Assembly (NCBI GenBank): GCA_030425425.1
Contig: JAUIAO010000059.1
Location: forward strand, 1-36,543
Direction of reading: 5' to 3'
Source: Bacteroidia bacterium
Lineage (GTDB): Bacteria; Bacteroidota; Bacteroidia; Cytophagales; Cyclobacteriaceae
DNA: 36,543 nt
Made by a program: the position numbers and the translations under genes. The notes beneath the pieces were generated by a model. The model was not told where the DNA came from, did no database searches, and saw only the letters and a list, made by a program, of their open reading frames with translations. Of the stretch, positions 1,669 to 36,543 are shown piece after piece. Position 1 is the stretch's first letter. Each line of letters begins with the position of its first letter.

Positions 1669-1686
1669 TTCAAATCAATTATTCTA

Positions 1687-2157: not shown

Positions 2158-2177
2158 TCTAACCAAATAATAGTAAT

Positions 2178-2741: not shown

Positions 2742-2749
2742 ATACCGAA

Positions 2750-4711: not shown

Positions 4712-4723
4712 AAACACAGAGCA

Positions 4724-4753: not shown

Positions 4754-4787
4754 ACTTGATCTACTATAATTTTTAATACAGAATAAA

Positions 4788-5402: not shown

Positions 5403-5410
5403 ACTGAGCT

Positions 5411-5875: not shown

Positions 5876-5879
5876 GTAG

Positions 5880-8589: not shown

Positions 8590-8608
8590 CCATACATTAT
8601 CATAGAAA

Positions 8609-9385: not shown

Positions 9386-9399
9386 TTAATACTTGAGCA

Positions 9400-11451
9400 T
9401 TGAAATTTTTAGTCACAGTTTTTGTAGTACTCACCAGTATTCAGACCTGCCTCGCCCAATCTGACCAGGACATTTACCTCGCCTGGTTGGATTCTATGAC
9501 TAGTGATCATTACATCGGCATCAAGATGGAACTGGATCACGTAATAGTGAGTGATTCTGCCGATCGGTCTCATCTCAATAATCCGATAATGCAAATGAAT
9601 ATGCGATGTACAGATCAATTGTTACATTGTTTACCTGGTGTCAACATGATCCGGAGAGGGAATTTTGCAAATGAACCTATGCTGCGCGGACTAAGCTCAG
9701 ACCGCTACATTGTGAGTGTGGATGGAATGCGAATCTATGGAGCCTGTACGGACAAAATGGACCCTACATCATCATATATAGAACCCATAAACCTAAAGAG
9801 CTTGGATGTCTCATTTGGGTGCGAAGGAAACATGACCGGATGTGGCACAGGAGGAAGTGTGAATTTTGGATTAAAAAAACCAATATTCAATAGCTCCAAT
9901 CCCTTTGGGGCAACCGCCAACATGAACTATTCTTCCGTTTCAAGAGCATTTGATCAATCGTTGGACTTGAACTACTCCAGGAGAAATTGGGCAGTTAGAT
10001 TGTCTGGAGTTCATCGCAAATCAGGTGATTATACAGCCGGTGATGGACAGACTGTACAATACAGCCAATTTGAAAAATACAACTATACTGGTTCCATAAA
10101 TTACCGTATCAATAGCCTTAGCATGATATCTCTTGATTTTGTGGGTGACAATGCTACTAACATTGGATATCCCGCACTTCCTATGGACGTAGCTTTTGCC
10201 AAAGCTAAAATCTTCGGACTGACCTATTTTACAGATCGTATGTGGTTCCTTAGAGAACCAGAAGTGAAATTCTATCATAATACAATCAGACATGAAATGG
10301 ATGATACCCACAGAGATTCTGTCACCATGCATATGGACATGCCCGGCCATACCCGCACAACAGGTGGATATATCAGTGGAATTTTATTGAACAGTCAACG
10401 TTCTTCTGTGAATGCAAAAGCTGATTTTCATCATGTATTCTGGCATGCTGAGATGACCATGTACCCCAATGAAGCAGGGCAACAGCCCATGTATATGCTT
10501 ACCTGGCCTGATATTCATCGTAGTATTGGAGGAATAGAGTTTAGTCACACTAGAAATTTCACTCCCAACAATCTGCTAAACAGCAACTTGAGGTTAGAGT
10601 TGGGACATTCCTATATCAGTAGTCATTTTGGAGAACGTCAACTTTCCGTCTTTGACAAGGGTACAAATGGTTCTAGAAGTAAGCTTCTTGTAAATGCTTC
10701 CATGAAATATCAGATAAAAGTTGGTAAAACAACTACAATCAATTCATCTATGGCTTACGGTGAGCGACTGCCTAACGCTTCGGAGCAATTTGGCTTTTAT
10801 CTATTCAATCAGCAAGATGGATATGATTACCTGGGAGATCCTGATTTAGCTAAAGAAAACAACATTCATTTAGAATTTGGTCAGAATACTAGCCGCGGTG
10901 ATTTCTACTTTGAAACCACAGCATTCGGATATTTATTTGACAACTATATCATGGGAGTTTATGACTCTTCTCTAAGTCATATGACCATAGGTGCCAAAGG
11001 CGTAAAGTGGTATAAGAATACAGGCAGAGCAGTTATGTTCGGTGGAGAAATTCTTTGGAAGAATCGCTTTTTCAAGCATTTGAATAGCGAATTCAGTGCA
11101 AAGTATGTCTTTGGAAGAGATAGTCATGCACGACCTTTACCTCAAATGCCTCCATTAAAACTAAGTTACTCATTATTAGAGCAAATACGAGGTTGGGATT
11201 TTCAACCGGAAGTAACTTGGTCATCAGCTCAAAACAGAATAAGTGAGCAATTTAACGAACGTCCAACAGACTCCTTTTTATTGGTAAATTTTGGAGCCTC
11301 AAAATCAATAAAAATGCGAACTGGAAGTGTGAGGATTAGCCTGGGCATCAGTAATATTTTTAATGCTTCATATCGTGAGCATTTTGATATTGGGTCAATT
11401 CTCCGTCCGGGCAGAAGTATCGACCTTATGATGAGTTGGAGGATTAATTAA
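9400..11451 (+). CDS. oprC: TonB-dependent outer-membrane copper receptor, OprC/NosA type (TTG start)
   Basis: This 683-aa protein has a signal peptide (MKFLVTVFVVLTSIQTCLAQ), a plug domain (about 55-160, with LRGLSSDRYIVSVDGMRI) and a beta-barrel ending in an aromatic-type C-terminus. The plug has GACTDKMDP, giving C116-x3-M120. The barrel has HEM, giving H298-x-M300. These match the CxxxM and HxM copper ligands described for OprC/NosA. NosA was first found as an outer-membrane protein needed for copper supply to N2O reductase, which fits the location. TTG at 9400 is chosen as start because it alone gives the signal peptide; the next ATG would remove it. The gene follows the YtkA-like lipoprotein by 14 bases. 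Confidence 0.88.
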   Translation: MKFLVTVFVVLTSIQTCLAQSDQDIYLAWLDSMTSDHYIGIKMELDHVIVSDSADRSHLNNPIMQMNMRCTDQLLHCLPGVNMIRRGNFANEPMLRGLSSDRYIVSVDGMRIYGACTDKMDPTSSYIEPINLKSLDVSFGCEGNMTGCGTGGSVNFGLKKPIFNSSNPFGATANMNYSSVSRAFDQSLDLNYSRRNWAVRLSGVHRKSGDYTAGDGQTVQYSQFEKYNYTGSINYRINSLSMISLDFVGDNATNIGYPALPMDVAFAKAKIFGLTYFTDRMWFLREPEVKFYHNTIRHEMDDTHRDSVTMHMDMPGHTRTTGGYISGILLNSQRSSVNAKADFHHVFWHAEMTMYPNEAGQQPMYMLTWPDIHRSIGGIEFSHTRNFTPNNLLNSNLRLELGHSYISSHFGERQLSVFDKGTNGSRSKLLVNASMKYQIKVGKTTTINSSMAYGERLPNASEQFGFYLFNQQDGYDYLGDPDLAKENNIHLEFGQNTSRGDFYFETTAFGYLFDNYIMGVYDSSLSHMTIGAKGVKWYKNTGRAVMFGGEILWKNRFFKHLNSEFSAKYVFGRDSHARPLPQMPPLKLSYSLLEQIRGWDFQPEVTWSSAQNRISEQFNERPTDSFLLVNFGASKSIKMRTGSVRISLGISNIFNASYREHFDIGSILRPGRSIDLMMSWRIN

Positions 11452-11466
11452 AACAAACAAACCAAA

Positions 11467-11868
11467 ATGAATAACGATATCAAGGACATAAGATCAGAGA
11501 AAGATGTAGAATTATTGGTTCACAATTTTTATAAAAAAGTTCGTCAGCACCCTGAAATCAGTCATTTTTTCATTGAGACCATACATGACTGGGATACACA
11601 TCTTAAAAAGTTAATACAATTCTGGATGGCCAATTTATTTGGACACACAGGATTCAATGGAAATCCAATTAGGGCACATATTCAAGTAGATCAATCCTTT
11701 GAAAATCAGATTGAGCAAGCACATTTTGGACATTGGATTCAATTGTGGTTTAATACAGTTGATGAGCTATTCAAAGGAGAGAAAGCTAATCTAGCGAAAG
11801 AAAGAGCACGCAATATTGCGCATATCACATTCATGAAAATATACCAATCACGAAAAGCAATTAAGTAA
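11467..11868 (+). CDS. Group III truncated haemoglobin
   Basis: The 133-aa protein has the group III truncated globin pattern: NFYKKVR near the start (Tyr at B10, about residue 22), then FWMANLFGH..FNGNP, and proximal histidine H89 in FGHWIQLWF followed by ERA. Members bind O2 and NO at haem, and some protect against NO. It lies 15 bases after the copper receptor gene and 7 before a cupin gene, inside the NO/N2O unit, which supports an NO-scavenging or NO-dioxygenase-like job. Enzymatic activity is inferred. Confidence 0.9.
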   Translation: MNNDIKDIRSEKDVELLVHNFYKKVRQHPEISHFFIETIHDWDTHLKKLIQFWMANLFGHTGFNGNPIRAHIQVDQSFENQIEQAHFGHWIQLWFNTVDELFKGEKANLAKERARNIAHITFMKIYQSRKAIK

Positions 11869-14739: not shown

Positions 14740-14765
14740 ATATAGCGGCTTTATTCCGCCTATAT
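14740..14765 (+). promoter_or_regulatory. Imperfect palindrome over the start of the RteC gene
   Basis: ATATAGCGG (14740-14748) pairs with CCGCCTATAT (14756-14765) with one bulged C and a 7-nt loop. It overlaps a TATAAT-like sequence and the ATG at 14764. It could act as an operator or as an RNA hairpin hiding the start. No Shine-Dalgarno sequence is visible here. Confidence 0.3.
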
Positions 14766-15579
14766 GAATCAGCTGTTATCCCTAACCGAAGATCTGGAGA
14801 AAGGTCTGATTGGCATTGAAAATTCCAATGATACACGCCTTCAGAAGTGCATTAAGAAAATCAAACTATGCGAAAGTTTGATTAATAATCTCAAGCTTCT
14901 TTACAGAAAGAAACCCAAAATTGATCCTGATCAGGAAATACATTTCTTTAAGAAAATCAAGCCTCAATTCACTGTTGAACTACATTATCAAAATACACTT
15001 TTTGCTTATTTCAAAAATAAGCCCAGAGGAACGATAAAGGAAAAGAAGGTATTTATCAATCAGGAACTTGAACGTATTTCAGCATATCTCCAGCGCTACA
15101 ATGAGTTCTACACATACTATAAAACAGGTTCAGAATACCTTGATCACCTGTTTTATCGTCAGATTGAGTTTGATATCAAGATTCATGCTATGTTGGAGCA
15201 TCCTTTGGATAGGGAATTCACTTGTCCCGCTGGTCCGACATTAACTTGTGTAATTTGTGCTGAAAAAGTAATTCAATTCCTCAAAAACGAACTTTTTATG
15301 CTCAAAAACCCCCACCTAGACCCATCTTGGGAAAAGTCAAAAACATTAAGCTGGAAAGGATCTAAAACAGACCTTGTAGAATTGATTTATGCCCTTCATA
15401 GTACCGGAAAGGTTGATTCTGACCTAAAACAAATTGTTGCAGCAATGGAACACACGTTTAATATCGATATTGGGAATAATTACCGCACTTTTACAGAAAT
15501 CAAGCGTAAAAAGAACCCTACTGCATTTATTAACGAGCTCGAAACCTGCTTGTTAGAAAAAGTCAAATCAGAATTTTGA
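14764..15579 (+). CDS. RteC-family regulatory protein
   Basis: The 271-aa protein matches RteC-domain proteins along its length. It has a charged, helical N-terminus, then FYTYYKTGSEYLDHLFYR, and a C-terminal winged-helix-like part with WKGSKTDLVELIYALHSTG and NNYRTFTEIKRKKNPTAFIN (each quoted in part). RteC was described in Bacteroides conjugative transposons such as CTnDOT, where it switches on excision genes; many orphan copies exist. No RteA/RteB, integrase or transfer gene is visible here. The gene marks the left edge of the accessory region. Confidence 0.88.
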   Translation: MNQLLSLTEDLEKGLIGIENSNDTRLQKCIKKIKLCESLINNLKLLYRKKPKIDPDQEIHFFKKIKPQFTVELHYQNTLFAYFKNKPRGTIKEKKVFINQELERISAYLQRYNEFYTYYKTGSEYLDHLFYRQIEFDIKIHAMLEHPLDREFTCPAGPTLTCVICAEKVIQFLKNELFMLKNPHLDPSWEKSKTLSWKGSKTDLVELIYALHSTGKVDSDLKQIVAAMEHTFNIDIGNNYRTFTEIKRKKNPTAFINELETCLLEKVKSEF

Positions 15580-22577: not shown

Positions 22578-23711
22578 ATGGATATAGAGAAACTAAAGAA
22601 CTTAATTGAAAGCTGTCATTTGAATTTTTTGATTGGATCAGGTGCCTCAAGAAATCATCTAGGAACATTAGGCAATATTGAAGAATTATTAACTGAGCTA
22701 GCTAATTCCAAATTTGATGAAGAAAAGAAAATACTACTAGATGCTACCATAAAGTACCAATATTTCATTGTCGCTATTAAAGGGAATCTCGAGATTTTAG
22801 ATGGTGATGATGACGAATTAAATAAGACTAGAAAATCATATCAATCTTTTATTCACTCTATTAACTATTTCCTTAGAAGACGAAAGAGCAATCTTCTTTC
22901 TAAGCAAGCAAACTTGTTCACTACCAACATGGATTTGTTTCTTGAATCCACTTTGGAGCTTGAGAATGCAGAATATAATGATGGTTTTTCAGGTAAACTG
23001 AATGCTAAATATGGAACTGAAAATTTTCATAATTCAATATTCAAGTTAAGTACACATTACGATATTCGTTCTGAGGTTCCACTATTTAACCTTTTTAAGT
23101 TACATGGCAGTTTGAACTGGCTCGAATCTGAAAAGGGAATTGAATATGATTATGGTCTAAAGTCATTAAACGATATTGCTGGTATCGATTGTCCAGAGGA
23201 GGATTTTATTTCTATTCATAGTGATGAAGGGGTGCCATTAAACCTTACTGAAATCAGCTCGAAACTAGAAGAACTTGGAGTTGTAAAGAAAGAAGTACAT
23301 GAAGCCTTTCTTGCGGCCTATGATAAGTTGGTCATGATTAACCCTACAAAGGACAAGTTTGCAACAACAACCCAAAATCTTCTTTTTTATGAACTTTTAA
23401 GAATGTATTCAAATCATTTAGAACGGGAAAATTCAGTTCTATTCGTGTTTGGTTTCTCCTTTGCCGACGAACATGTACGGGAGATCACCAAGCGAGTTGC
23501 ACTAGCAAATCCAACTTTGTTGATAATCATTTTCGCCTATAATCAAGAAGCAAAAGTGAGTATTGAAGGATTAATTGGTCAAAAGTCCAATATCATAATT
23601 CTTGCTCCAGAAGAAGGTCAAGCTGGCTATACATTGGGAACCATAAATGAGAAATTTTTCAAAAATGTGATTACCAAAATTGAAGATCAAAATAAAGTAG
23701 CCAATGTCTAA
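22578..23711 (+). CDS. SIR2-like NADase-type defence protein
   Basis: This 377-aa protein has a SIR2-like fold. The Rossmann glycine motif LIGSGAS is at residues 18-24, TTNMD at 115-119 (N117, D119) and KLHGSLNW at 174-181, with H176 as candidate catalytic His. The C-terminal FGFSFADEHVREI is typical of bacterial SIR2-like defence proteins. Bacterial SIR2 partners such as Sir2-HerA deplete NAD+ upon phage infection. The next gene, overlapping by 8 bases, is HerA-like, matching that two-gene arrangement. The pair sits inside a type I RM operon. Confidence 0.88.
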   Translation: MDIEKLKNLIESCHLNFLIGSGASRNHLGTLGNIEELLTELANSKFDEEKKILLDATIKYQYFIVAIKGNLEILDGDDDELNKTRKSYQSFIHSINYFLRRRKSNLLSKQANLFTTNMDLFLESTLELENAEYNDGFSGKLNAKYGTENFHNSIFKLSTHYDIRSEVPLFNLFKLHGSLNWLESEKGIEYDYGLKSLNDIAGIDCPEEDFISIHSDEGVPLNLTEISSKLEELGVVKKEVHEAFLAAYDKLVMINPTKDKFATTTQNLLFYELLRMYSNHLERENSVLFVFGFSFADEHVREITKRVALANPTLLIIIFAYNQEAKVSIEGLIGQKSNIIILAPEEGQAGYTLGTINEKFFKNVITKIEDQNKVANV

Positions 23712-25143
23712 AAATACTCTCGAAATAGAGGATGTTCTTAGGGTAGGAAAGGTTGTTTCTGTAAAGGGACGATCCATCGAAGTGTTGGTTGATAAATCAA
23801 AAAACGGGTCTCATTTACTCTACAACGGAGAATTGATTAAGAATATTTCGGTAGGAAGTTATGTCAAAATTGCTAAAGGTTTCGAATCGTTCATTGGAAA
23901 AATAGAGGGAGAATATATTACTGAGGACAAGGTTTATCAGGATAAAATTTATCTTAATGAAAAAGATAAAATCAAACGAATCCTGAATATTAAACTACTC
24001 GGATACATTGAAAGTGGGAAATTCAAACAAGGAATTAAGGATCTTCCGCTAATAGATAATGAATGTTATCTGGTTTCTCAGGATGAGTTTAAGAAGGTTC
24101 ATTATTTCCTGAAAGAGATCAATGGAAAGCTCGACGAGGAGTTGGAGGTCGGACATCTTGCAAATGAAAGGGGTAAGGAAATCATTCTTGGTGTCAATAG
24201 TTTATTTGCAAGTCATATTGGAATTTTCGGCAATACTGGAAGTGGTAAGTCTTACACCTTAGCAAGTCTTTATCATCGTTTGTTCGAGAAATATAAGGAT
24301 GAACAGCGATTTAAAGAAAACGCCAAGTTTATAATAATTGACTTCAATGGGGAGTACCTAATGCCAGAAGGCGATGACAATATTATTGTACATTCAGAAT
24401 ACAAAAACACATATAATTTAAGCACTAGAAGAAATGATTCAGATAAATTTCCAATTTCTGCAAGTGAAATCAATGATGATGATTTTTGGTCAATATTCCT
24501 GACAGCAACCGACAAAACGCAAAAACCATTTTTAAAGCGCGCTCTGTCCAATGAATTTTATTTCTCAAGGTTTGATACAATTGAAAATTTCCGTTGGTGC
24601 TTAGGGAATGTAATCCAGAATCTAATTGAAAGGGGATCCGATAAAAGTGATATACTTCAGTTCCTGAGTGAAACTTCCAGTGCAATTGGTGGTAATGCTA
24701 CTCTTGAAGAAATTCGAAATGACTATTCATCTAAATTAAAATGGCATAATTCGAATACTACGTTCTATTATGAAACTCCACCCACAATTTATTTAGCTGA
24801 TCCTCAATTTAAAGGTGTGGTAATTGATCAGCCGATCAATCAGGTAAATGTCGACCTGAATAGTGTTTCTGATTTACAAAAAATCAGATTGAGAGTGGTA
24901 TTTGAGTATTATAATGAAATTGCAAAATTCGATCTTAATACTGAGCATATCTCACCTCTAATTAAACGGCTGAAGAGGATCGAAGAACTTGATAGAATTA
25001 TTACCATATCAGATGATTTCAGCGATAATTTTTTAGACATAATTTCATTATCAGATGTCAATACCTCTATGAAAAAAGTTATTCCCCTGTTAATCTGTAA
25101 GCAGGTATATGACAAAAAAAAAGCAAGCAAGAGATTCATCTAA
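23704..25143 (+). CDS. HerA-like ATPase, N-terminal part (frame broken at a 9-A run)
   Basis: This is the first 479 aa of a HerA-family DNA-translocating ATPase. A HAS-barrel-like beta region spans about residues 10-75, followed by Walker A GNTGSGKS at 176-183. The frame ends shortly after a run of nine A at 25114-25122; the last ten residues (KKKASKRFI) are junk produced by the shift. The Walker B (NIIIDEAHN) and the rest of the core lie in the next frame. With eight A the two parts would join into one protein of about 620 aa, normal for HerA. It overlaps the SIR2 gene and would be its partner. Whether the break is real, slippage-corrected or a sequencing error is open. Confidence 0.8.
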   Translation: MSKNTLEIEDVLRVGKVVSVKGRSIEVLVDKSKNGSHLLYNGELIKNISVGSYVKIAKGFESFIGKIEGEYITEDKVYQDKIYLNEKDKIKRILNIKLLGYIESGKFKQGIKDLPLIDNECYLVSQDEFKKVHYFLKEINGKLDEELEVGHLANERGKEIILGVNSLFASHIGIFGNTGSGKSYTLASLYHRLFEKYKDEQRFKENAKFIIIDFNGEYLMPEGDDNIIVHSEYKNTYNLSTRRNDSDKFPISASEINDDDFWSIFLTATDKTQKPFLKRALSNEFYFSRFDTIENFRWCLGNVIQNLIERGSDKSDILQFLSETSSAIGGNATLEEIRNDYSSKLKWHNSNTTFYYETPPTIYLADPQFKGVVIDQPINQVNVDLNSVSDLQKIRLRVVFEYYNEIAKFDLNTEHISPLIKRLKRIEELDRIITISDDFSDNFLDIISLSDVNTSMKKVIPLLICKQVYDKKKASKRFI

Positions 25144-26569: not shown

Positions 26570-28054
26570 ATGCCTGAAACCACCCGCATAGAATACAAAC
26601 AAGAACTAACCGATGGTTTAGAGAAAGAAGTCATCGCCTTTCTCAACTACCATGAGGGCGGTATCATCTACATAGGCATAGACAAATCCATGAAGACAAT
26701 CGGGCTTACTGACGCTGATGGTTCGGCACTCAAAATAAAGGACAGGCTCAAACACAACATTGCCCCCTCTTGTCTTGGGCTTTTCGATATTCAGATTCAG
26801 GAAAAGGATGGTCTTGACATCATCAAGCTCATTGTGGCCAGTGGGCCTGAGAAACCCTATCACCTTCCCAAATATGGCCTGACCCCCAAAGGCACCTATC
26901 TGAGAATTGGCACAGCTGCAGAGCCCATGCCTCAGAAGTTGATCGATGAACTGTTTTCCAAACGTACCCGAGCATCCATTGGGAGGATCCGCTCCAATCA
27001 TCAGGATTTGAAATTCGAGCAGTTAAAGATCTATTATCAGGAGCAAGGTAAGCCCCTCAATGATGCTTTTGCTAGAAACCTGGAATTACAAACAGAATCC
27101 GGCGATTTGAACTATGTAGCCTATCTTTTGGCAGATGTAAATACCAATTCTATCAAGCTGGCGAAATATTCTGGCAACACTAGGGTAGATTTAATAGAGA
27201 CCAATGAATACGGCAATTGCTCTTTGGTAAAGGCGACCAAGCAAGTGTTGGACAAAATTGAGTTGGAGAATAAGACCACAGCACAAATCACGTCCAGTAT
27301 GCGAAAAGAAACACGTCTGTGGAATCCCATTGCACTGCGTGAAGCCATTATCAATGCTTTCGTTCATAATGATTACACCAAGGAAGTACCACCCAAGTTT
27401 GAGATATTTGGTGATCGAATAGAAATCACCTCTGCGGGGAGCCTGCCGGATGGCTTAAGCCAGGAGGAGTTTTTTGAGGGCTACTCAGTTCCCAGAAATA
27501 AAGAAATCATGCGCATCTTTAAGGATCTGGATTTGGTAGAGCAGTTGGGGTCTGGTGTACCTCGTATCTTGGAACATTACGGCAGGGATTGTTTCAAGTT
27601 TAGCGACAACTTTCTGAGAATGTCTTTTCCTGCTGCCGTACCTATCACCTCTCAGTCTGGTAACCAAGTGAGTAACCAAGTGAGTAACCAAGTGAGTAAC
27701 CAAGTGGATCTCGATAAATTAGTAGAAGCCATTAAAAGAACTTTGCAAGGTGAGCCATACCAGCCTGCAGACACCAGCCTTCGCAAATACACCGAAGAAG
27801 CACGGGATCTTTCAGAAACATCAATAAAAATCATTGCTTTTTGCCAAACCCCTCGCAAGCGAAAAGAGATACTTGAAGAGGCCTTAGGTCTTTCCAATCA
27901 AACCAAAAACTTCAAAGCGAATATATCACCATTGATCGATGCTGATTTCATCCAATATACCATCAAAGACAAGCCCAATAGCCAGCACCAAAAATACGTG
28001 ATCACTACTAAGGGCAAAGTAGCCTTGTTTGTCAGAAACTATCAGGAAAAATGA
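26570..28054 (+). CDS. AlbA_2 / GHKL-ATPase DNA-binding protein with NQVS repeats
   Basis: The 494-aa protein has an AlbA_2 (schlafen-like) N-terminal domain, about residues 3-125 (TRIEYKQELTDGLEKEVIAF, GGIIYIGIDKS). A GHKL-type ATP-binding domain, about 255-345, carries LREAIINAFVHNDY and GSGVPRIL, followed by a C-terminal winged-helix region. Between them, residues 363-380 form four NQV(S) repeats encoded by a 12-base unit. Proteins of this type are often annotated as transcriptional regulators or RecG-like and are common in type I RM loci. Its stop overlaps the hsdR start (ATGA), so regulation of the RM system is plausible. Confidence 0.85.
   Translation: MPETTRIEYKQELTDGLEKEVIAFLNYHEGGIIYIGIDKSMKTIGLTDADGSALKIKDRLKHNIAPSCLGLFDIQIQEKDGLDIIKLIVASGPEKPYHLPKYGLTPKGTYLRIGTAAEPMPQKLIDELFSKRTRASIGRIRSNHQDLKFEQLKIYYQEQGKPLNDAFARNLELQTESGDLNYVAYLLADVNTNSIKLAKYSGNTRVDLIETNEYGNCSLVKATKQVLDKIELENKTTAQITSSMRKETRLWNPIALREAIINAFVHNDYTKEVPPKFEIFGDRIEITSAGSLPDGLSQEEFFEGYSVPRNKEIMRIFKDLDLVEQLGSGVPRILEHYGRDCFKFSDNFLRMSFPAAVPITSQSGNQVSNQVSNQVSNQVDLDKLVEAIKRTLQGEPYQPADTSLRKYTEEARDLSETSIKIIAFCQTPRKRKEILEEALGLSNQTKNFKANISPLIDADFIQYTIKDKPNSQHQKYVITTKGKVALFVRNYQEK
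27661..27707 (+). repeat. 12-base tandem repeat inside the AlbA_2 gene
   Basis: TAACCAAGTGAG occurs three times exactly (27661-27696), followed by a partial fourth unit to 27706. It encodes NQVS repeats in the linker between the ATP-binding and winged-helix parts. Because the unit is 12 bases, copy number can change without shifting the frame. Confidence 0.9.
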
Positions 28055-31000
28055 AATTCACCGAATCAGCCCTGGAAAACGCCTTTCTTGAACTGCTACA
28101 AGAACAAGATTATACCTACGAAAAAGGAGAAGATATCCCTCGCAATCCTTCAGAAGTACTTATCAAAGAGGATTTGAAGACTTACCTTCGGGAGAGATAT
28201 AAGTTCGACCAAATCACTGAAGTAGAAATTGATGGCATCATTCGCCATTTGGAAACATTCCCTGCTTCTGACCTCTACGAAAGCAATAAAGCCATCATGA
28301 AATTTATCACCGATGGTTATACGCTGAAAAGAGAAGATCGGAGCAAAAAAGACTTGCATATCGAGCTGGTTGATTTTAGAAAATCGAAACAGGAAAGTGC
28401 ATCATCAGAAGCATTATCGGTGGCTGCAGAATCATCAGAAGCCTACAGTGAGCCAGCCAATATCTTCAAAGCAGTAAATCAGTTTGAGATCATTGGTTTC
28501 GAAAAGCGCATCCCGGATGTTATCCTGTTTATCAATGGCTTGCCTCTTGTAGTAGTTGAGTTCAAAAGCGCCATCCGTGAGGAGGCCACCATTTTCAATG
28601 CTTATGAGCAATTGACTATTCGATATAAAAGAGATATTCCGGAACTTTTCAAGTACAATGCTTTCTGTATTATCAGTGATGGCGCCAACAATAAAGCAGG
28701 TTCCTTCTTTGCCAAATATGATTTCTTTTATGCCTGGCGAAAGATCAATCCAGAGGATACCAAGGAAGTAGATGGCATTGCTTCGCTTCATACCATGGTC
28801 AAAGGAATGCTGGATAAAAACCGTCTTTACGACATCATTCATCATTTCATCATGTTTCCTGATGCCAGCAAGAAAGATGAGAAGATTGTTTGTCGATATC
28901 CACAATATTACGCTGCTACCAAGCTTTTCAACAACATTCTGAACCATCAGAAACCCGAAGGTGATGGTAAAGGAGGCACCTATTTTGGTGCAACAGGTTG
29001 TGGTAAAAGCTACACCATGCTTTTCCTCACCAGGTTGTTGATGAAAAGTGTCTATCTGTCCAGCCCAACCATCATTTTGATTACAGACAGGACTGATCTG
29101 GACGATCAGCTTTCCGGTCAGTTTACCAATGCCAAACGTTACATTGGTGATGATCAGGTAATCAGCGTGGAAACCAGAGACCATCTGAAAGAATTACTCC
29201 AGGGACGAAACAGTGGAGGCGTTTTTCTGACCACCATCCACAAATTCACCGAAGCAACTGATCTCCTCACGGATCGTACCAATGTGATTTGCATTTCCGA
29301 TGAGGCTCACAGAAGCCAAATCAACCTGGATCAAAAACTGAAAATCACTAAAGATGGCGTGACCAAAACTTTTGGTTTTGCCAAATACCTCCACGATTCA
29401 TTACCCAATGCCACTTATGTCGGTTTCACCGGCACACCAATTGATGCCACCATGGATGTTTTTGGTGAAATTGTGGACAGCTATACCATGACCGAATCAG
29501 TGAAGGATGAAATCACCGTTCGCATAGTCTATGAGGGCCGTGCTGCAAAAGTCATCCTCAACAATCAAAAGCTCAAGGAGATTGAAGCATACTACGCCCA
29601 ATGTGCGGAGGATGGCAGCTCCGAACATCAGATTGAGCAAAGCAAAAAAGCTTCGGCACAGATGAATGCGATCATTGGTGATCCTGACCGAATCAAGGAA
29701 GTAGCCAATGACTTCATCAAACACTATGAGGAACGTGTTTATGAAGGCTCCACAGTAAAAGGCAAAGCAATGTTTGTCTGCAGTACTCGCCCAATTGCTT
29801 ATGAGTTGTACAAAGAAATCATATCCCAAAGACCGGATTGGGCAGAAATCAAAATAGCAGAAGAAGGTGCTGTCTTGACTGAAAAGGAAAAGCGGGAAAT
29901 CAAACCCATGCCTCGGGTCCAGATGGTCATGACCAGAAATCAGGATGACCCGAAAGAATTGTATGACTTACTAGGCACCAAGGATGATCGAAAAGAGCTT
30001 GATCGCCAGTTCAAAGAAGCCAAGTCCAATTTCAAAATTGCCATTGTGGTAGATATGTGGCTCACCGGTTTTGACGTACCTTTTCTGGACACGATCTACA
30101 TCGATAAGCCGATCAAACGTCACAACCTCATTCAAACCATTTCTCGGGTGAACCGAAAGTTTGAAGGAAAACCGAAAGGTTTGGTGGTGGATTACATTGG
30201 CATCAAAACCGAAATGAACAAAGCCCTGGCACACTACTCCAAAGTGGATGGTGCCAATTTTGAAGAAATCGAACATTCCGTGAATGTGGTAAAGGATCAG
30301 CTGGATTTGCTTTCACGATTGTTTCACACCTTCGATGATACATCATATTTCGAAGGTTCGTCCGTAAATCAACTCAATTGCCTCAACAATGCCGTGGAAT
30401 TTGTCCAGATGACAAAAACCATTGAAAACAGATTTCTCGGTTTGGTGAAGCGACTCAAAGCTGCCTATGACATCTGCTGCGGAAGTGAAGAAATCACAAC
30501 GGAACAGAGAGACTACATCCACTTTTACCTGGCCATCCGATCCATCGTGATAAAACTCACACGAGGAAATGCTCCGGACACAGCCCAGATGAATGCACGG
30601 GTGAGAGAAATGATCTCGGAAGCACTCAAAAGTGATGGTGTGGAAGAAATCTTCAAAATAGGAGAGGAGAAGCAAAAGGAGTTTGACCTGTTTGATGAAG
30701 AACACCTTGCACGTCTGGAAAAGATCAAACTGCCAAACACCAAAATGAAACTCCTTATCAAATTGCTTTCTCAGGCATTGGACAACTTCAAAAAAATCAA
30801 CAAAGCCAAAGGCACAGATTTCTCCAAACAAATGAAGGCCATTGTTGACAAATACAATGAACGCAAAGAGCAGGATACATTCAGGGGAGAAGTTGTGGAT
30901 GACTTCTCCAATGAAATCATTGAACTCTACAGGGCATTGCTGGAAGAAAGAAAATCATTTGGAGAGAAAGGGATTGACATTGAGGAAAAAGCCTTTTATG

Positions 31001-31260
31001 ACATCCTGTTTTCACTTTGCAAAAAATATGACTTTAGCTACCCTGAGGACAAACTCATAGTATTGGCATCAGAGGTGAAAAAGGTTGTCAACAACATCGC
31101 CAAATATGCCGACTGGAACAAAAAAGAAGACACCAAAGCCGAGCTGAGAGTAGAGCTTCTCCTCCTCCTCAAAAAGCACAACTACCCACCAGTGGACAAA
31201 GACGAAGTGTACAAAGAAATCTTCGAACAAGCCGAGAATTTGAAGAGGTATAAGGGGTGA
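28051..31260 (+). CDS. hsdR: Type I restriction endonuclease and translocase HsdR
   Basis: The 1069-aa motor subunit has a PD-(D/E)xK nuclease domain near residues 140-180 (RIPDVILFINGLPLVVVEFKSA, quoted in part). Walker A GATGCGKS lies near 312-319 and the SF2 motifs DEAH (in ISDEAHRS) and GFTGTP near 415-460. Motif VI QTISRVNRKF lies around 690-700. It translocates DNA and cuts it when unmodified sites are met. It starts in the stop codon of the AlbA_2 gene and lies about 5.5 kb after hsdS, separated by four inserted genes. Length and motifs are intact. Confidence 0.96.
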   Translation: MKFTESALENAFLELLQEQDYTYEKGEDIPRNPSEVLIKEDLKTYLRERYKFDQITEVEIDGIIRHLETFPASDLYESNKAIMKFITDGYTLKREDRSKKDLHIELVDFRKSKQESASSEALSVAAESSEAYSEPANIFKAVNQFEIIGFEKRIPDVILFINGLPLVVVEFKSAIREEATIFNAYEQLTIRYKRDIPELFKYNAFCIISDGANNKAGSFFAKYDFFYAWRKINPEDTKEVDGIASLHTMVKGMLDKNRLYDIIHHFIMFPDASKKDEKIVCRYPQYYAATKLFNNILNHQKPEGDGKGGTYFGATGCGKSYTMLFLTRLLMKSVYLSSPTIILITDRTDLDDQLSGQFTNAKRYIGDDQVISVETRDHLKELLQGRNSGGVFLTTIHKFTEATDLLTDRTNVICISDEAHRSQINLDQKLKITKDGVTKTFGFAKYLHDSLPNATYVGFTGTPIDATMDVFGEIVDSYTMTESVKDEITVRIVYEGRAAKVILNNQKLKEIEAYYAQCAEDGSSEHQIEQSKKASAQMNAIIGDPDRIKEVANDFIKHYEERVYEGSTVKGKAMFVCSTRPIAYELYKEIISQRPDWAEIKIAEEGAVLTEKEKREIKPMPRVQMVMTRNQDDPKELYDLLGTKDDRKELDRQFKEAKSNFKIAIVVDMWLTGFDVPFLDTIYIDKPIKRHNLIQTISRVNRKFEGKPKGLVVDYIGIKTEMNKALAHYSKVDGANFEEIEHSVNVVKDQLDLLSRLFHTFDDTSYFEGSSVNQLNCLNNAVEFVQMTKTIENRFLGLVKRLKAAYDICCGSEEITTEQRDYIHFYLAIRSIVIKLTRGNAPDTAQMNARVREMISEALKSDGVEEIFKIGEEKQKEFDLFDEEHLARLEKIKLPNTKMKLLIKLLSQALDNFKKINKAKGTDFSKQMKAIVDKYNERKEQDTFRGEVVDDFSNEIIELYRALLEERKSFGEKGIDIEEKAFYDILFSLCKKYDFSYPEDKLIVLASEVKKVVNNIAKYADWNKKEDTKAELRVELLLLLKKHNYPPVDKDEVYKEIFEQAENLKRYKG

Positions 31261-31434: not shown

Positions 31435-33645
31435 ATGCAGCTAATTACCAACAATCCTTATCATGTTTTAGGATTGCTATCTGATTCGCCACAGAGAGTA
31501 ATCGAACGTCAAAAAGGAAAAATCAATGCCCTTCAGAGGGTAGGAAAAGATATCGAGTTTACAGATGATATTTTGGCTATTGGATTTCCAAATCGTAAGA
31601 ATGGGTCCATAGAAAGAGCCTTTTCGCAAATTGAGATAAATCAAAACAAAGTTTTTCATTCTCTATTCTGGTTCGTCAATACTAATCATCTGGATGAAAC
31701 CGCATTAGGCTATCTAAGAACTGGGGATATTGACAAATCCCTGGATATCTGGAATAAAATCACTAGGGGCAAATCAGTAAATGAAAAGAATTTTGGAGCA
31801 TTCAATAACCTTGGTACTCTCAAACTATTTTATTCCACCAAATTTGAAAATTTCATTACTGAATCATTTCTAGATGCAATCAAGCTCAAAATCGAGTTAA
31901 TAAAATCAGAAGCATTCTCTAATTATTGTCAATTAGTTGCCGATGAAACTTATGTTATAAATACTGAGAAGGTTCTCATGGATTTAATTGGAAGTATAAT
32001 GGATGAGCATAAGTCCAGTAATATCACAAGCCCGAAGAACTTGCCGGCCTTGATCAGCAAACTTGACTCCAGTATATCATCACTTTTATCAGAAAATTTA
32101 GCAGATGAGCCTTTTGTTAATATTGAATCAGCTTTAGATCAAACCAAAAAGAATCGATTATCATATCCAAAAAAAGGGCAAGCCTTAGCAAAGAAGCTTA
32201 TAATCAGCACCAAATCTGACCATAAAACACTGAAAGATATTTTGGGTAAGAGTGACCCAAAATTCCAGCTCATCTCTGACAAGTTGGCAAAGGAAATTCT
32301 TCAATGTGGTGTAGACTACTTTCAGGAATATAGGGACTTGGATAAGGATAACTTGGGATCTAATGTAATGAAGTTACTTAAGTATGCTCATTCAATAGCT
32401 ATAGGCATTCAAACTAGGGAACGGATTGAGCAAAATATTGAAGGCCTGGAGGAATGGATAAGTTCAGAAAATTCTCGTAAGAAGAATGAGGAGATAGAAT
32501 CTGAATTAAGTTTCCTTGTCGAACAACTTGAAAATTTCGAAAGTGTCACAATTTCTTTAGCAAATGTTGAGTCATTTATCAAAAAATGTAGGCCAAAATT
32601 GTTAACAATTAGATCGGTGTTTGGGAGAGATGATGAGTTTTACCTTAAATTAAGTAGCGCGATTGTTAGCAGTGCTCAATCGATGCTTGTGTCTATCGTT
32701 AATAAGTCTCAAGATTTTTCATTACCGATTTCAACAAGAACCGCAGTTACTGGTGCATTCAAACAGTCAAAGGAACTTTTAGATTTTGATATGATCCCTG
32801 AACTAAATGATCAGTTTCAAAGAAACTTTGAAACACTGAGAAATATGTATGATCAATATATTCAATTATCATCGACCCCATTCTTAACTAACTCCCCATC
32901 CAAAACTCAATCACAGACCATCAAAACCTCTTCTGACAGTCATTCTCAAACTAATAAATCTCGTCCTCCAAGAACTCAAAATTCCTCCAATAACAATGGC
33001 TTGTTAATTATTTTAGGAATTGCTGCAATATTGATAATTATCGCTGCTATTTCTAACTCGAATTCTAATTCCAGAAGGTCTTCCAACAATAACTATCCTA
33101 GCTATTCTCCGTCTAATTCTTCTTCCAACTATAGTCCTCCAGCGAGCACAAACAAGACCCCGATAAAACCTAAAATTACAGTAAGTAAATACAAAGGAAA
33201 CCAACTTAATAATGGTGATTCACCATATAATTCTGTTTTTGGAAGTGGTGTTTATGATAAGTCTGTGAATAACTGGGTGCAATTCAAGAATGGCAATGCA
33301 CATGATGTAGTTATTTGTTTGGTCAATGTCTATTCTGATAGAACCATTAGAAATGAATACATCAGAGCGGGATCCACATTCCAAATGACCAATATTCCAA
33401 ATGGCACATATTATATCAAGGGTTTTTATGGAAATGACTGGAATCCCTACAAAAAAATTGATGGAACTAATATTAAAGGAGGATTTGACACAAATTTTAG
33501 CTTTAGTAAATCAGACGGTTACGGTGACCGACTTAGTCTTCAGGATAATGGTTATCAATATTCTACTTATGAGGTAACTCTTTATTCCGTCTCTAATGGA
33601 AACATGTCTCAGGAAGGCATTAGCCAATCCGAATTTTTCAAGTAA
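31435..33645 (+). CDS. Single-pass membrane protein with J-like N-terminus
   Basis: The 736-aa protein begins NNPYHVLGLLSDSPQRVIER, like the first helix and loop of a J-domain, and continues to KVFHSLFWFVN near residue 77. The HPD motif that stimulates Hsp70 ATPase is not visible. A long helical part reaches residue 520. One membrane helix (LLIILGIAAILIIIAAI, about 523-541) follows, then an Asn/Ser/Pro-rich linker and a 150-residue C-terminal domain with YKGNQLNNGDSPYNSVFG. There is no signal peptide, so the N-terminus is probably cytoplasmic and the C-terminus periplasmic. The next two genes encode GrpE-like and Hsp70 proteins, which supports a co-chaperone role. That role is inference. Confidence 0.65.
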   Translation: MQLITNNPYHVLGLLSDSPQRVIERQKGKINALQRVGKDIEFTDDILAIGFPNRKNGSIERAFSQIEINQNKVFHSLFWFVNTNHLDETALGYLRTGDIDKSLDIWNKITRGKSVNEKNFGAFNNLGTLKLFYSTKFENFITESFLDAIKLKIELIKSEAFSNYCQLVADETYVINTEKVLMDLIGSIMDEHKSSNITSPKNLPALISKLDSSISSLLSENLADEPFVNIESALDQTKKNRLSYPKKGQALAKKLIISTKSDHKTLKDILGKSDPKFQLISDKLAKEILQCGVDYFQEYRDLDKDNLGSNVMKLLKYAHSIAIGIQTRERIEQNIEGLEEWISSENSRKKNEEIESELSFLVEQLENFESVTISLANVESFIKKCRPKLLTIRSVFGRDDEFYLKLSSAIVSSAQSMLVSIVNKSQDFSLPISTRTAVTGAFKQSKELLDFDMIPELNDQFQRNFETLRNMYDQYIQLSSTPFLTNSPSKTQSQTIKTSSDSHSQTNKSRPPRTQNSSNNNGLLIILGIAAILIIIAAISNSNSNSRRSSNNNYPSYSPSNSSSNYSPPASTNKTPIKPKITVSKYKGNQLNNGDSPYNSVFGSGVYDKSVNNWVQFKNGNAHDVVICLVNVYSDRTIRNEYIRAGSTFQMTNIPNGTYYIKGFYGNDWNPYKKIDGTNIKGGFDTNFSFSKSDGYGDRLSLQDNGYQYSTYEVTLYSVSNGNMSQEGISQSEFFK

Positions 33646-33658
33646 ACCAACATTTCTT

Positions 33659-34603
33659 ATGAAAAAAATACTACTGACCCTATTATTTATAGTTTCATAT
33701 TGGTTTTCAATTGCCCAATCCGATAGCATTAGAATTCGAGATATTGAGGCAAAGCTTGAGGTCATTAACCAAAACTTAAGTACGGCTAAATCTGACTTGA
33801 TTAAGCTCCAAGAGGTTAACAATCGCCTCTCTCGCAATGTCAATGATCTTATATTATCCGGGCAAACAACAGATTCTAGACTTGACAGCCTTCAGATTTT
33901 ACTTCAAAGGAATAGCCAGTCAATTGAGGAACTATCTGAATTAATTTCGAGCCAGAAGACCGAACTCACTGGGCAAATTCAAAAAACGGAACAATCCGCT
34001 TCTGAAAGAATAGAATCACTTGATGAATCTCTAAGCAAGAACACCTTGTACTGGATTATTGCTGTTTTAGCAGTCGGATTGATCACATTGGGATTATTCT
34101 TTATGCTTCGCAAACGAGTTTCAGATAATCAATCTTCAATAGTAGAAAACATCTCTTCCACAAGAAAACAATTGGAACAAGAAGGCATTCGACTGGATGA
34201 AAAACTTATCGGCATAATGGAGACCCAGTTAAAAGTAATTCAGGAAGAAAAGACATCTTCAACCAGCACCTCAGAACCGGATCACTCACTTGCCTTGAAA
34301 GTCGCGGATGAGATTGTCAGAATAGAAAAGAATATCAGTCAAATGGATGAAGGCACAAAGGGTCTTAAGCAATTAGCAAAGGCGGTTGAACGCATTAGAG
34401 ACAACTTTGCTTCAAATGGTTATGAAATGGTTGATATGTTGGGTAAACCTTTTGACGATGGCATGAAAGTTACGGCCAATTTCAGGCCAGATGAAACCTT
34501 GGCCGAAGGAGAAAGAATCATAAGCAGGATAATAAAGCCTCAGGTTAACTTCAAAGGAGTCATGATTCAATCAGCTCAAATCGAAGTATCACAAGGAGAA
34601 TAA
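33659..34603 (+). CDS. Membrane-anchored coiled-coil protein with GrpE-like C-terminus
   Basis: The protein is 314 aa from ATG 33659. An earlier in-frame ATG at 33596 lies inside the previous gene and would hide the signal peptide MKKILLTLLFIVSYWFSIAQ. A coiled coil (about 25-135) and a membrane helix (WIIAVLAVGLITLGLFFML, about 141-159) come before a cytoplasmic part. The end (about 215-314) looks like GrpE. Its helices run LALKVADEIVRIEKNI and ERIRDNFASNGYEMVDMLGKPFDDGMKV (quoted in part), followed by a beta domain ending IIKPQVNFKGVMIQSAQIEV. GrpE acts as the nucleotide-exchange factor of DnaK. The downstream Hsp70 gene begins 10 bases later. Confidence 0.7.
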   Translation: MKKILLTLLFIVSYWFSIAQSDSIRIRDIEAKLEVINQNLSTAKSDLIKLQEVNNRLSRNVNDLILSGQTTDSRLDSLQILLQRNSQSIEELSELISSQKTELTGQIQKTEQSASERIESLDESLSKNTLYWIIAVLAVGLITLGLFFMLRKRVSDNQSSIVENISSTRKQLEQEGIRLDEKLIGIMETQLKVIQEEKTSSTSTSEPDHSLALKVADEIVRIEKNISQMDEGTKGLKQLAKAVERIRDNFASNGYEMVDMLGKPFDDGMKVTANFRPDETLAEGERIISRIIKPQVNFKGVMIQSAQIEVSQGE

Positions 34604-34613
34604 ACAAATCAAG

Positions 34614-36543
34614 ATGTCAAGAATAAAAATAGATTACGGAATAGACTTGGGGACTACCAATTCTGCCATTGCCAGAATGGAAAATGGCGAACCAACAATT
34701 AAGAAAACTGATACTCAAGAAGACACAATGCCTTCAGTTGTTGGCTTCAATAGAAAGAAATCATTACATGTAGGAAAACAAGCCTGGAATGTATTGAAAT
34801 CCGAAAAACTTTCGGCAATGAAGAAATGGGATGACACCAAAATAAATACCTTCATTGAATTCAAACGAACCATGGGAACGGACAAGAAATACCAAAGTTC
34901 CCACATGGAATCAGTTTTTAATTCAGAGCAACTCTCATCAGAAGTCCTTAAAAAGCTAAAATCCTTCATCTCTGATGATGCGTTTCAGTCGGTTGTAGTA
35001 ACCGTTCCTGCCAAGTTTGATATTCGTCAAAAAGATGCAACGCTGAGAGCTGCAAAGCTTGCCGGGTTCAATCATTGCGAACTTTTACAGGAACCAATCG
35101 CTGCTTCAATGGCCTATGGCTTATCCACAAGCAACAAGAATGGCTTTTGGGTGGTGTTTGACTTTGGTGGTGGAACATTTGATGCAGCTCTAGTGAAAGT
35201 AGCAGATGGCATCATTAAAGTGGTTGATACTGATGGTGACAATTACTTAGGTGGTAAAAATCTTGATGCTGCAATTGTTGATGAAATTATCATTCCATAT
35301 TTCGAATCTGAATATTCGATTGATAGCATTCTTGAAGATGATAAAAAGAAACGAATACTTCAGGAAGCAATGAAATACTATGCGGAAGAAGCTAAAATAC
35401 AACTCTCCTTCAAGCCAGATCACAATGTTCTTTCAGATCTTGGCGACATCCCCGGAGAGGATGATAATGGTGAAGAATTTGAACTGGACATCACGATTAC
35501 CCAAGAAGACCTAAGAAACGTGCTCGGCCCTATTTTTCAAAGGGCTATTGATATAACATCAGATCTGCTTAATCGAAATAATTTAAGCGGCTCTAAGCTT
35601 GATTCTCTTGTTCTAGTGGGTGGCCCTACTTACTCACCAATTCTAAGGTCGATGCTCCATGATCAGATCAAAAAGCCTGATACCAGCGCCGATCCAATGA
35701 CGGCAGTAGCTGTAGGTGCATCACTTTATGCATCAACTATTGATATAAGTGACGAGGTTAAGGAAATCACAAGGGATAAAACCAAGGTTCAATTGGACAT
35801 TGGGTATAGTGCGACATCAGTTGAATTAGAAGAATGGGTAACAATAAAGACGATTCCTGTAAAAACTGAAGGCAGTATTCCAAACCCAATATTCGCAGAA
35901 ATTATCCGTGGTGATAAGGCATGGTCGTCGGGAAAGGTTGTAATTAATGCTCAAGGAGAAATAATTGAAGTAAAGTTGCTGGAAGATAAATCCAACAGCT
36001 TTGAAATATCTTTGTTTGATGAGTCCGGAAATCGCGTGATATGCGAACCTGATGCCTTTACAATCCTTCAAGGAATTGGTGGAACTGATTCCGCTGCTTC
36101 ATTACCGCATAACATAGGTATTGAAATAAAGAGAAGGAGTGATAGTCGATTAATTTTCTCAACAATTGATGGGTTAAGAAAAAATCAAAGTTCACCGGCA
36201 ACTGGAACAAAGAATAATTTAAAGACGCAAAAGCAGATTCGGCCGGGGATGACCTCTGATGTCATAAAAATTCCAATTTATCAAGGGGATGATGATGCCG
36301 AAGGTTCAAGAGCTATTTACAACAAGATAATTTATTCCTTAACCATAACTGGAGATGATCTTCCTGCACTTTTGCCGGAAAATTCAGATGTAGATTTGAC
36401 CTTTGTAACAGACAGATCTGGACGAACTGCTTCTGTGAGAGCCTTTTTCCCTCTATTGGAGCACACTGTTGACCTACAGATTCCTGAAGAGTCAAGTAAT
36501 GAAATCGAATCTGATTTTCTTGAAAGAGAATTATTAAATGGAG
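34614..36543 (+). CDS. Hsp70-family protein (runs past the window end)
   Basis: The reading frame from ATG 34614 is open through the last base, giving 643 residues without a stop, so it is incomplete at the 3' end. The ATPase domain is clear: IDLGTTNSA (10-18, phosphate-1), FDFGGGTFDAALV (about 182-194, phosphate-2) and LVGGPTYSPILRSML (about 335, adenosine motif). The region after about residue 385 is unlike DnaK's substrate-binding domain in the parts I can recognise, though LPHNIGIEI near 500 recalls it. It follows the J-like and GrpE-like genes by 10 bases. The likely role is the motor of a separate, membrane-linked chaperone set, not the housekeeping DnaK. Confidence 0.88.
   Translation, partial: MSRIKIDYGIDLGTTNSAIARMENGEPTIKKTDTQEDTMPSVVGFNRKKSLHVGKQAWNVLKSEKLSAMKKWDDTKINTFIEFKRTMGTDKKYQSSHMESVFNSEQLSSEVLKKLKSFISDDAFQSVVVTVPAKFDIRQKDATLRAAKLAGFNHCELLQEPIAASMAYGLSTSNKNGFWVVFDFGGGTFDAALVKVADGIIKVVDTDGDNYLGGKNLDAAIVDEIIIPYFESEYSIDSILEDDKKKRILQEAMKYYAEEAKIQLSFKPDHNVLSDLGDIPGEDDNGEEFELDITITQEDLRNVLGPIFQRAIDITSDLLNRNNLSGSKLDSLVLVGGPTYSPILRSMLHDQIKKPDTSADPMTAVAVGASLYASTIDISDEVKEITRDKTKVQLDIGYSATSVELEEWVTIKTIPVKTEGSIPNPIFAEIIRGDKAWSSGKVVINAQGEIIEVKLLEDKSNSFEISLFDESGNRVICEPDAFTILQGIGGTDSAASLPHNIGIEIKRRSDSRLIFSTIDGLRKNQSSPATGTKNNLKTQKQIRPGMTSDVIKIPIYQGDDDAEGSRAIYNKIIYSLTITGDDLPALLPENSDVDLTFVTDRSGRTASVRAFFPLLEHTVDLQIPEESSNEIESDFLERELLNG

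Follow-up and report, generated by a model that had tools for sequence, protein, structure and literature searches.

An Hsp70 operon with a J-like protein lacking HPD and a predicted membrane-spanning GrpE-like protein next to a defence island in Bacteroidota

The window analysed here, a stretch of 36,543 nucleotides from a Bacteroidia bacterium of the family Cyclobacteriaceae, is the whole of one contig (G000:C4) of a 5.85-Mb genome assembled in 121 contigs. At its end lie three consecutive plus-strand genes for a J-like protein, a GrpE-like membrane protein and an Hsp70. In the list of open reading frames (ORFs) they occupy positions 31435-33645, 33659-34603 and 34614 onward, the very places where an earlier interpretation of the letters without database searches (the sequence-only reading) had proposed a private J/GrpE/Hsp70 set. 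That reading took the trio for the whole machine; the trio does recur in other genomes, but at least five genes belong together, as a kinase-AAA+ gene and a TerB-like gene follow. The window ends inside the Hsp70 gene (34614..36543, plus strand), of which it holds 643 amino acids. Its continuation was found through the kinase-AAA+ protein of a relative: used as a query on the same genome, it located its counterpart (52% identity) at the start of contig C111. The last 127 bp of the window recur exactly as the first 127 bp of C111, and contigs adjacent in an assembly often overlap by such exact end copies. Inspection of the sequence beyond position 36543, where the sequence-only reading had suggested looking, showed that C111 supplies the remainder of the Hsp70 (about 845 amino acids in full), followed by a kinase-AAA+ fusion protein of 594 amino acids, a TerB-like protein of 170 amino acids and a 183-amino-acid protein with an N-terminal hydrophobic segment. 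The operon order in this genome is J-like, GrpE-like, Hsp70, kinase-AAA+, TerB-like.

When an alignment of six GrpE-like proteins was run against 84,980 genomes, 135 relatives emerged, and the best 80 loci were examined. The sequence-only reading depended on the three genes being neighbours in other genomes, and our analysis showed that they are. Hsp70 adjoins the GrpE-like gene in 79 of the 80 loci, and a J-like gene lies at most 900 bp upstream in 73. Among the seven loci that miss it, L065, L069, L093 and L104 end at the gene, in L033 and L063 the J-like gene lies about 1 kb farther upstream, and in L076 the GrpE-like gene stands alone. Under a stricter ORF rule the whole trio was found in 69 loci. 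Where more than 6.5 kb of downstream sequence was available, the kinase-AAA+ gene was present in 58 of 59 loci and the TerB-like gene in 47. By their record titles, the 80 loci are from Bacteroidota except five metagenome-assembled genomes assigned to other phyla (L060, L069, L073, L074 and L077), which are possibly binning errors.

Pfam PF00012 covers residues 9-417 of the window Hsp70 (E 1e-65), and the protein is 52-70% identical to 36 relatives. We aligned 81 operon Hsp70 ORFs with 30 ordinary DnaKs and with E. coli DnaK, HscA and HscC. The 81 ORFs came from the window, L009, L019-L022 and the 80 loci and were longer than 500 amino acids with a GTTNS motif; the L009/L031 and L019/L056 records are counted twice, and a few loci give two tandem Hsp70s. 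Two Hsp70-labelled genes were seen in one stretch at L052, L072, L082, L096 and L104. In the nucleotide-binding domain (amino acids 1-385 of the window protein, 34614..35768), the ATPase residues D8, T11, N13, K70, E171, D194, T199 and D201 (DnaK numbering) are kept in 81/81, so the ATPase motifs are intact, as the sequence-only reading had it.

The contact between the HPD motif of the J-domain and R167 of DnaK is the textbook on-switch of Hsp70 chaperones. According to passages of one study, the HPD aspartate binds R167 and Q378 of DnaK and the HPD histidine binds the backbone of L391 (PMC8215388). In the operon Hsp70s these positions are replaced: R167 is E in 73 and Q in 8 of the 81 (E156 in the window protein), Q378 is Y in 59 and F in 22, and L391 is Q in 75, K in 5 and T in 1. 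A wider set of J-related DnaK residues, given in part of another study, consists of 146-148, R151, R167, N170, T173, T215, E217, V218, T383 and 388-392 (PMC4022485). Here N170 is Q in 78/81, T173 is V or I in 75/81, V389 is K in 72/81, and R151 is K in 56, I in 14, N in 10 and R in 1; the conserved DnaK-type interdomain linker (VLLL) is not kept. These residues together with Q378 make a J-docking set of 17 positions. Of the positions between 4 and 393 that are invariant in the 31 DnaKs, HscA and HscC, 10 belong to the J-docking set, and the operon Hsp70s keep 2 of these, against 54 of the 65 other positions (Fisher one-sided p 1.5e-4). The J-like protein starts with NPYHVLGL (residues 7-14), and HPD was found in the first 140 residues of none of the 68 family members, window protein included, which agrees with the J-like start without HPD described earlier. 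HPD and its receiving residues are therefore lost on both sides, while the motor is kept.

The J-like protein has 736 amino acids (31435..33645, plus strand). Its AlphaFold model, made with 68 sequences, has a mean predicted local distance difference test score (pLDDT) of 79.6. The model places helices at amino acids 8-11, 20-36, 56-65 and 69-76, and J-domains have the same four-helix order; this predicted J-like domain without HPD covers amino acids 1-80 (31435..31674). It is followed in the model by helical repeats (amino acids 85-479), a membrane helix (amino acids 522-540 by hydropathy, 32998..33054; 523-540 in the model, with low confidence there) and a beta-rich C-terminal domain (about amino acids 614-716, 33274..33582). 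For a profile of the N-terminus, 20 N-termini were chosen (15 Bacteroidota and 5 Proteobacterial, the latter picked by eye among genes near Hsp70 in L198-L202) and compared with 177,635 PDB sequences at E up to 10. Of the 28 matches, 19 were J-domain chains, Sec63 chains counted; each is weak, and they align near the J-domain start. The best (E 0.012) was 2cug, labelled mKIAA0962, which we take to be a J-domain chain. With hhalign, whose E-values are all pairwise so that only the contrast with mismatched controls is used, the mixed N-terminal profile matched ordinary DnaJ at E 1.6e-4 over 22 columns, comprising helix I and the start of helix II, against 0.17 or worse for the controls; the profile of Bacteroidota alone was weak (E 7e-4) and became clearer once the Proteobacterial relatives were added. 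The C-terminal domain (query 542-736) is 53% identical to part of a protein in genome G037 (L010, contig 12, 2573-3790), which has a true J-domain with HPD (Pfam E 1.1e-27) and what looks like a membrane segment. Visual inspection of the ORFs listed for this 6.9-kb contig revealed no Hsp70.

Several observations weigh against this interpretation of the J-like protein and of the machine as a whole. Pfam DnaJ gave no row for the window protein, and it is absent among the 25 of 110 families listed for the 68 members; with the families sorted by member count and E-value, DnaJ could be matched by no more than one member, at E above 0.0064. Nine of ten N-termini scanned alone (E up to 10) gave no Pfam DnaJ, the tenth being a Nostoc DnaJ. 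The full-length profile gave 13 PDB matches with no J-domain among them, and none was recognised in the best 50 of 782 matches of a whole-chain Foldseek search. L196 and L197, two of the seven Proteobacterial relatives, have no clear J-like N-terminus in the upstream gene, L196 having only a doubtful internal J-like stretch. The contrast at the J-docking positions is weaker when positions invariant in DnaK only are counted (3/13 versus 69/126, p 0.028). Finally, the sequence-only reading had two of the three proteins anchored in the membrane; each of the two has one strong helix in the window, but hydropathy finds such a helix in only 39 of the 68 J-like proteins and none in the other 29. As a test for a J-domain the whole-chain Foldseek search was set aside: the listed matches are mostly helical-repeat proteins, with P58(IPK) found through its TPR part, and they swamp any information on the J part.

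An alternative is that the protein is a helical-repeat scaffold with a chance J resemblance in its first 80 residues, the chaperone consisting of the GrpE-like protein and Hsp70 only. Such a protein would have no Pfam DnaJ row, would find helical repeats among the best 50 Foldseek matches and would lack HPD in 68/68, just as observed. We consider it unlikely nonetheless, for chance would hardly account for the J-domain chains that dominate the PDB matches of the N-terminal profile, or for a C-terminal domain shared with the true J-protein of G037. A third point against it comes from a plasmid of Nostoc sp. UHCC 0302 (L203, 6818-9749), on which an operon encodes DnaJ, GrpE and Hsp70 in this order. 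Its J-domain is recognised by Pfam (E 4.8e-8) and lacks HPD; the partner Hsp70 has Q at R167 and keeps R151, N170, T173 and Q378. As far as its sequence goes, this operon is a further case of both sides changing. The earlier J-like assignment is thus upheld, chiefly by the N-terminal profile and with help from the model and the DnaJ profile. We use the term J-like, and do not file the 736-amino-acid protein as a J-domain protein, because the support from the model, the profiles and the shared C-terminal domain is opposed by the Pfam, PDB and Foldseek negatives.

The GrpE-like protein has 314 amino acids (33659..34603, plus strand); an alternative in-frame upstream ATG at 33596 would give 335. 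Its AlphaFold model (75 sequences, mean pLDDT 86.7, predicted template-modelling score 0.44) shows a long helix at amino acids 2-124, a membrane helix, another helix and a GrpE-like head. The membrane helix lies at amino acids 132-150 by hydropathy (34052..34108), and the GrpE-like C-terminal region covers about amino acids 207-314 (34277..34600), with helices at 210-228 and 236-252 and strands from 255 on, as in the GrpE fold. A Foldseek search against 350,542 PDB chains gave GrpE at all of ranks 1-12 (E 7.5e-6 to 4.5e-3, 12-19% identity), rank 1 being an integrative model and the GrpE chains within Hsp70 complexes being judged by chain length. The next match had E 0.16, and the TM-scores of the GrpE matches are low (0.27 or less by query length). 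The GrpE-like tail of the sequence-only reading was recovered in this way. Profile-profile comparison with ordinary GrpE gave E 5e-6 over 100 columns, with mismatched controls at 0.15 or worse; the Bacteroidota-only profile gave E 4e-4, and the match was clearer with the Proteobacterial relatives added. Pfam GrpE (PF01025) gave no row for the window protein (E up to 1) or the L009 protein (E up to 0.1), and the best 60 of 625 PDB matches of the full-length profile were mainly coiled coils, with no GrpE among them.

For this second protein the proposed membrane anchor holds throughout the family, as hydropathy places a membrane helix before the GrpE-like head in 75/75. Lysine and arginine are richer after the helix than before it in 72 of the 75 proteins, so the positive-inside rule would put the head in the cytoplasm and the coiled coil outside. 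The signal peptide that had been ascribed to this protein is not firm: its start resembles one by eye, but hydropathy detects an N-terminal hydrophobic segment in only 30/75 of the family, the window protein not among them.

The C-terminal part of the Hsp70, called unfamiliar by the sequence-only reading, does contain an inserted module, but it also appears to include a displaced region like the substrate-binding domain of DnaK. The module covers about amino acids 389-489 (35778..36080) and the region like the beta part of that domain about amino acids 490-628 (36081..36497), with approximate limits in both cases. The roughly 100 residues after the nucleotide-binding domain do not resemble the DnaK substrate-binding domain (E 0.07), whereas the stretch behind them matched it at E 1.4e-5 over 111 columns when Proteobacterial rows were included (controls 0.36 or worse), at E 5.6e-5 with the Proteobacterial rows alone and at E 0.017 over 17 columns with the Bacteroidota rows alone; an earlier profile of Bacteroidota only had given E 0.006. 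No Hsp70 appeared in the best 60 of 84 PDB matches of the C-terminal profile, the best of which had E 0.0042. In the alignment the module has a beta-rich look and the far C-terminal end a helical one. By its place in the alignment, the module would be located where the J-domain touches the linker and the substrate domain in DnaK.

Of the two further operon proteins, the kinase-AAA+ member of L009 matched Pkinase (1.2e-35) and AAA (5e-39) in Pfam. All 74 members retain the Walker A lysine and the Walker B glutamate. At the position of the catalytic aspartate of the kinase the 74 members have D in 36, E in 22, N in 8, G in 5, and R, A and H in one each, the H being that of the window's genome; judging from these residues, the kinase half is perhaps a pseudokinase. 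Five kinase-like matches were also seen on another contig of this genome (C95, 58 kb, about 5000-37600). The TerB-like member of L009 matched Pfam TerB at E 0.014 and 16.1 bits, below the curated cut-off of 24.4. The best PDB match of the TerB-like protein was a chain named hypothetical protein PG_1108 (E 0.006), and one plasmid member of the family is annotated as TerB family.

Loss of HPD and of the J-docking residues, together with a catalytic aspartate gone in 38/74 kinases, might indicate a degenerate, decaying copy of an ordinary DnaK operon. This is highly improbable, however, with catalytic residues kept in every one of the 81 Hsp70s, gene order kept across loci, relatives of the window Hsp70 at the identities given above, and ordinary dnaK, dnaJ and grpE genes present elsewhere in the window's genome. 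We regard decay as largely refuted by the intact catalytic residues.

The operon is sporadic. Its GrpE-like profile matched 7 of 395 Bacteroidota genomes, the window's own included; among these, G336 matched in a coiled-coil stretch only, and the match in G308 is at a contig end without recognised operon neighbours. The J-like protein matched 4 of 98 relatives, again counting the window's genome, two of them in the C-terminal domain only. No relative was found among viral contigs and phage records. The plasmid collection contained one relative of the GrpE-like protein, and a search of plasmids with the J-like N-terminus (E up to 1) had the Haliscomenobacter plasmid as its sole match. On this plasmid, pHALHY02, the five-gene operon lies between SIR2/WD40 genes and genes for BrxL, PglZ and an annotated 5-methylcytosine restriction component. 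Besides it, we viewed 8 plasmid records with Hsp70 matches among the best 60 of 90. On Proteobacterial plasmids a GrpE-like tail of 114-123 amino acids, without the membrane part, precedes Hsp70, and J-like starts lie near Hsp70 in L198-L202, upstream or downstream. Seven more distant Hsp70s on such plasmids also lack R167 (A in 5, V in 1, S in 1). One plasmid copy is near ZorA. The Shewanella and Aeromonas copies (L199, L201) have the Hsp70 and GrpE-tail operon beside Tn7-type transposition genes, and are counted as one case because they share a TnsA accession. At L199/L201 the distant operon, with peptidoglycan-binding-domain genes, stands directly behind the Tn7-type genes in a cargo-like manner.

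In the window the operon is preceded by an island of HsdR, HsdM, HsdS, SIR2_2, HerA-like, AbiH and Schlafen/AlbA genes. HsdR (type I restriction; 28051..31260) lies outside the operon, 174 bp upstream on the same strand. For the other loci, 140 of 214 complete flanking proteins (80 loci) of at most 900 amino acids were sampled; one TerB-like protein was dropped and 139 were scanned against PADLOC. As a control we used 121 of 248 proteins from 20 arbitrary 20-kb regions in 14 relatives' genomes, other than the genomes of the copies. At E up to 1e-15 the flanks matched 163 defence families and the controls 29; these figures count families, not proteins, and several models can match one protein. 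The enrichment is a modest sign only, because families and not proteins are counted and the control genomes differ from those of the copies. The 25 flank families listed (of 163) include Gabija, PbeA, type I and II methyltransferases, Cas1 and MkoA, and none of these 25 matched more than one flanking protein, which tells against a defence link; the 25 control families listed (of 29) include Argonaute models. Homologues of the window island genes and of four other defence proteins were present at 4/80 loci (729 kb) and in 0/20 control regions (400 kb), so the operon has no fixed defence partner. The defence role that the sequence-only reading drew from the adjacent genes is modestly favoured by the richer flanks, but hardly by the island genes themselves.

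Two purposes have to be weighed. Under the first, anti-phage defence proper, the membrane-held Hsp70 and the AAA+ protein would sense and remodel phage or host proteins during infection. The window island, the plasmid, Tn7, ZorA and SIR2/BREX settings and the family counts of the flanks speak for it. So do two published cases, each taken from part of its paper: HSP70-GrpE-DnaJ-fused sets in predicted conflict systems (PMC7159879) and an Hsp70-like protein in CoCoNuT restriction systems (PMC11090510). On the other side, no model of PADLOC-DB 2.0.0 matches the Hsp70 at E up to 1 and none gives a credible match for the J-like or GrpE-like protein (the best being DruC at 3.3e-5 on the coiled coil, others weaker), Pfam scans recognised no nuclease, toxin or pore among the five operon genes, and the neighbouring defence genes differ between loci. 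We put defence at somewhat under an even chance; the link of the operon to it is circumstantial and plausible.

Under the second, the operon would be an accessory machine for envelope stress or membrane-protein quality control, like DjlA or HscC-DjlB-DjlC, with no special phage link and spread by ordinary horizontal transfer. A membrane helix before every GrpE-like head fits such a role, as do the few island-gene homologues at the loci and the case of DjlA, which, in the relevant part of PMC11709261, joins an anchor, a TerB-like domain and a J-domain and acts on an envelope phosphorelay. It fits less well with a distribution limited to at most 7/395 Bacteroidota genomes, with related operons on plasmids, beside Tn7-type genes, near ZorA and between SIR2 and BREX genes, or with the 163 flanking defence families against 29 in controls. 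An envelope-stress purpose is a real possibility, at about one chance in three. On balance the operon would be an accessory anti-phage or envelope-stress system, with defence slightly favoured.

Comparison with known systems places the operon apart from each of them. It shares with DnaK-DnaJ-GrpE a catalytically intact Hsp70 ATPase, a GrpE-fold partner and a J-like partner encoded together, but it lacks HPD, has R167 and Q378 replaced and the linker changed, carries a module inserted before the substrate domain, has a GrpE-like protein predicted to span the membrane, and includes extra kinase-AAA+ and TerB-like genes. HscC of E. coli with DjlB and DjlC is likewise an accessory Hsp70 with its own J-proteins, and the J regions of DjlB and DjlC carry HPE, not HPD. 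However, unlike the operon Hsp70s, HscC keeps R151, R167, N170, T173 and Q378, and the 14-kb stretch of its locus that was viewed has no annotated GrpE-like gene. The mitochondrial import motor (Pam18, Pam16, mtHsp70 and Mge1) also has a membrane-tethered Hsp70, an HPD-less J-like protein in Pam16 and a GrpE homologue. It has in addition an HPD-bearing J-protein, Pam18, whereas none was seen in this operon.

In its relevant part, the work on GAP1-N2 GTPase conflict systems describes predicted immune-type operons near the membrane in which HSP70 and GrpE are accompanied by a DnaJ-fused or TPR-fused partner (PMC7159879). As given there, those systems are found mainly in Actinobacteria and Firmicutes, with GTPases and FNIII-repeat proteins, and the word TerB is absent from the text (Kaur et al. 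2020, PMC7159879). No GTPase or FNIII family appeared in general Pfam scans of our operon genes, in which no GAP1 profile was run. CnuD of the CoCoNuT type IV restriction systems is, from part of its paper, likewise an Hsp70-like protein in restriction systems, and a figure legend includes a serine/threonine kinase gene in extended CoCoNuT operons; CnuD differs in its degenerate Walker A-like motifs, with very low hydrolysis at best, and GrpE and DnaJ are absent from the text (PMC11090510). DjlA of E. coli, in the part of PMC11709261 that describes it, has a membrane anchor, a TerB-like domain and a J-domain and acts via DnaK and GrpE on an envelope phosphorelay; it differs in being a single protein with a functional J-domain that uses the general DnaK. 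Hsp70-GrpE-DnaJ sets in predicted conflict systems (PMC7159879) and the Hsp70-like CnuD (PMC11090510) are thus already in print, at least in the parts of these papers cited here. No description of the present operon was found in the literature searched by title and opening abstract lines, most subscription papers and preprints lying outside that search.

Taken together, we regard a self-contained, membrane-held Hsp70 remodelling machine with non-HPD coupling, distinct from ordinary DnaK-DnaJ-GrpE, as the best overall explanation and a probable one. That the machine is private and co-adapted is very likely, and we are equally confident that it is held at the membrane; a coupling independent of HPD is likely as well, with somewhat less assurance. 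The machine would sit at the inner face of the cytoplasmic membrane, with its first three proteins binding each other. The GrpE-like protein is predicted to consist of a coiled coil outside, a single membrane helix and a head in the cytoplasm, and this GrpE-type head should bind Hsp70 and control nucleotide exchange. A membrane-spanning protein with a cytoplasmic Hsp70-binding head could therefore relay an envelope signal, perhaps sensed by its coiled coil, to Hsp70. The J-like protein may recruit Hsp70 and present clients through its helical repeats; it cannot use the HPD trigger. Because HPD and the DnaK-type receiving residues are both gone, the coupling of hydrolysis would have to come from a new interface or from the client alone. 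By analogy with DnaK, which passes clients to ClpB, the Hsp70 might hand clients to the AAA+ unfoldase. A further reading is less likely than not: that the HPD/R167 trigger, elsewhere widely conserved, was abandoned on both sides and replaced, with the membrane-spanning GrpE serving as receptor for a periplasmic or phage-induced signal and converting it into activity of Hsp70 and AAA+ at the inner membrane face, in an immune system of Bacteroidota with Proteobacterial relatives.

Retention of the motor after loss of both halves of the switch makes this family a natural experiment that can show which elements of the switch are indispensable. It bears on whether a J-fold without HPD can drive Hsp70 and on whether a GrpE can serve as a receptor in the membrane. 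Should the link to defence hold true, bacterial immunity would gain a complete, ATPase-intact chaperone machine.

Elsewhere in the window, a SIR2_2 gene followed by that of a HerA-like (DUF87) protein lies between hsdS and hsdR (22578-25143). At 466-11868 and 14764-15579 we observed a nos (nitrous-oxide reductase) cluster ahead of the island, with an Rrf2 regulator, a NosZ propeller repeat and NosD, and an RteC gene between this cluster and the island.

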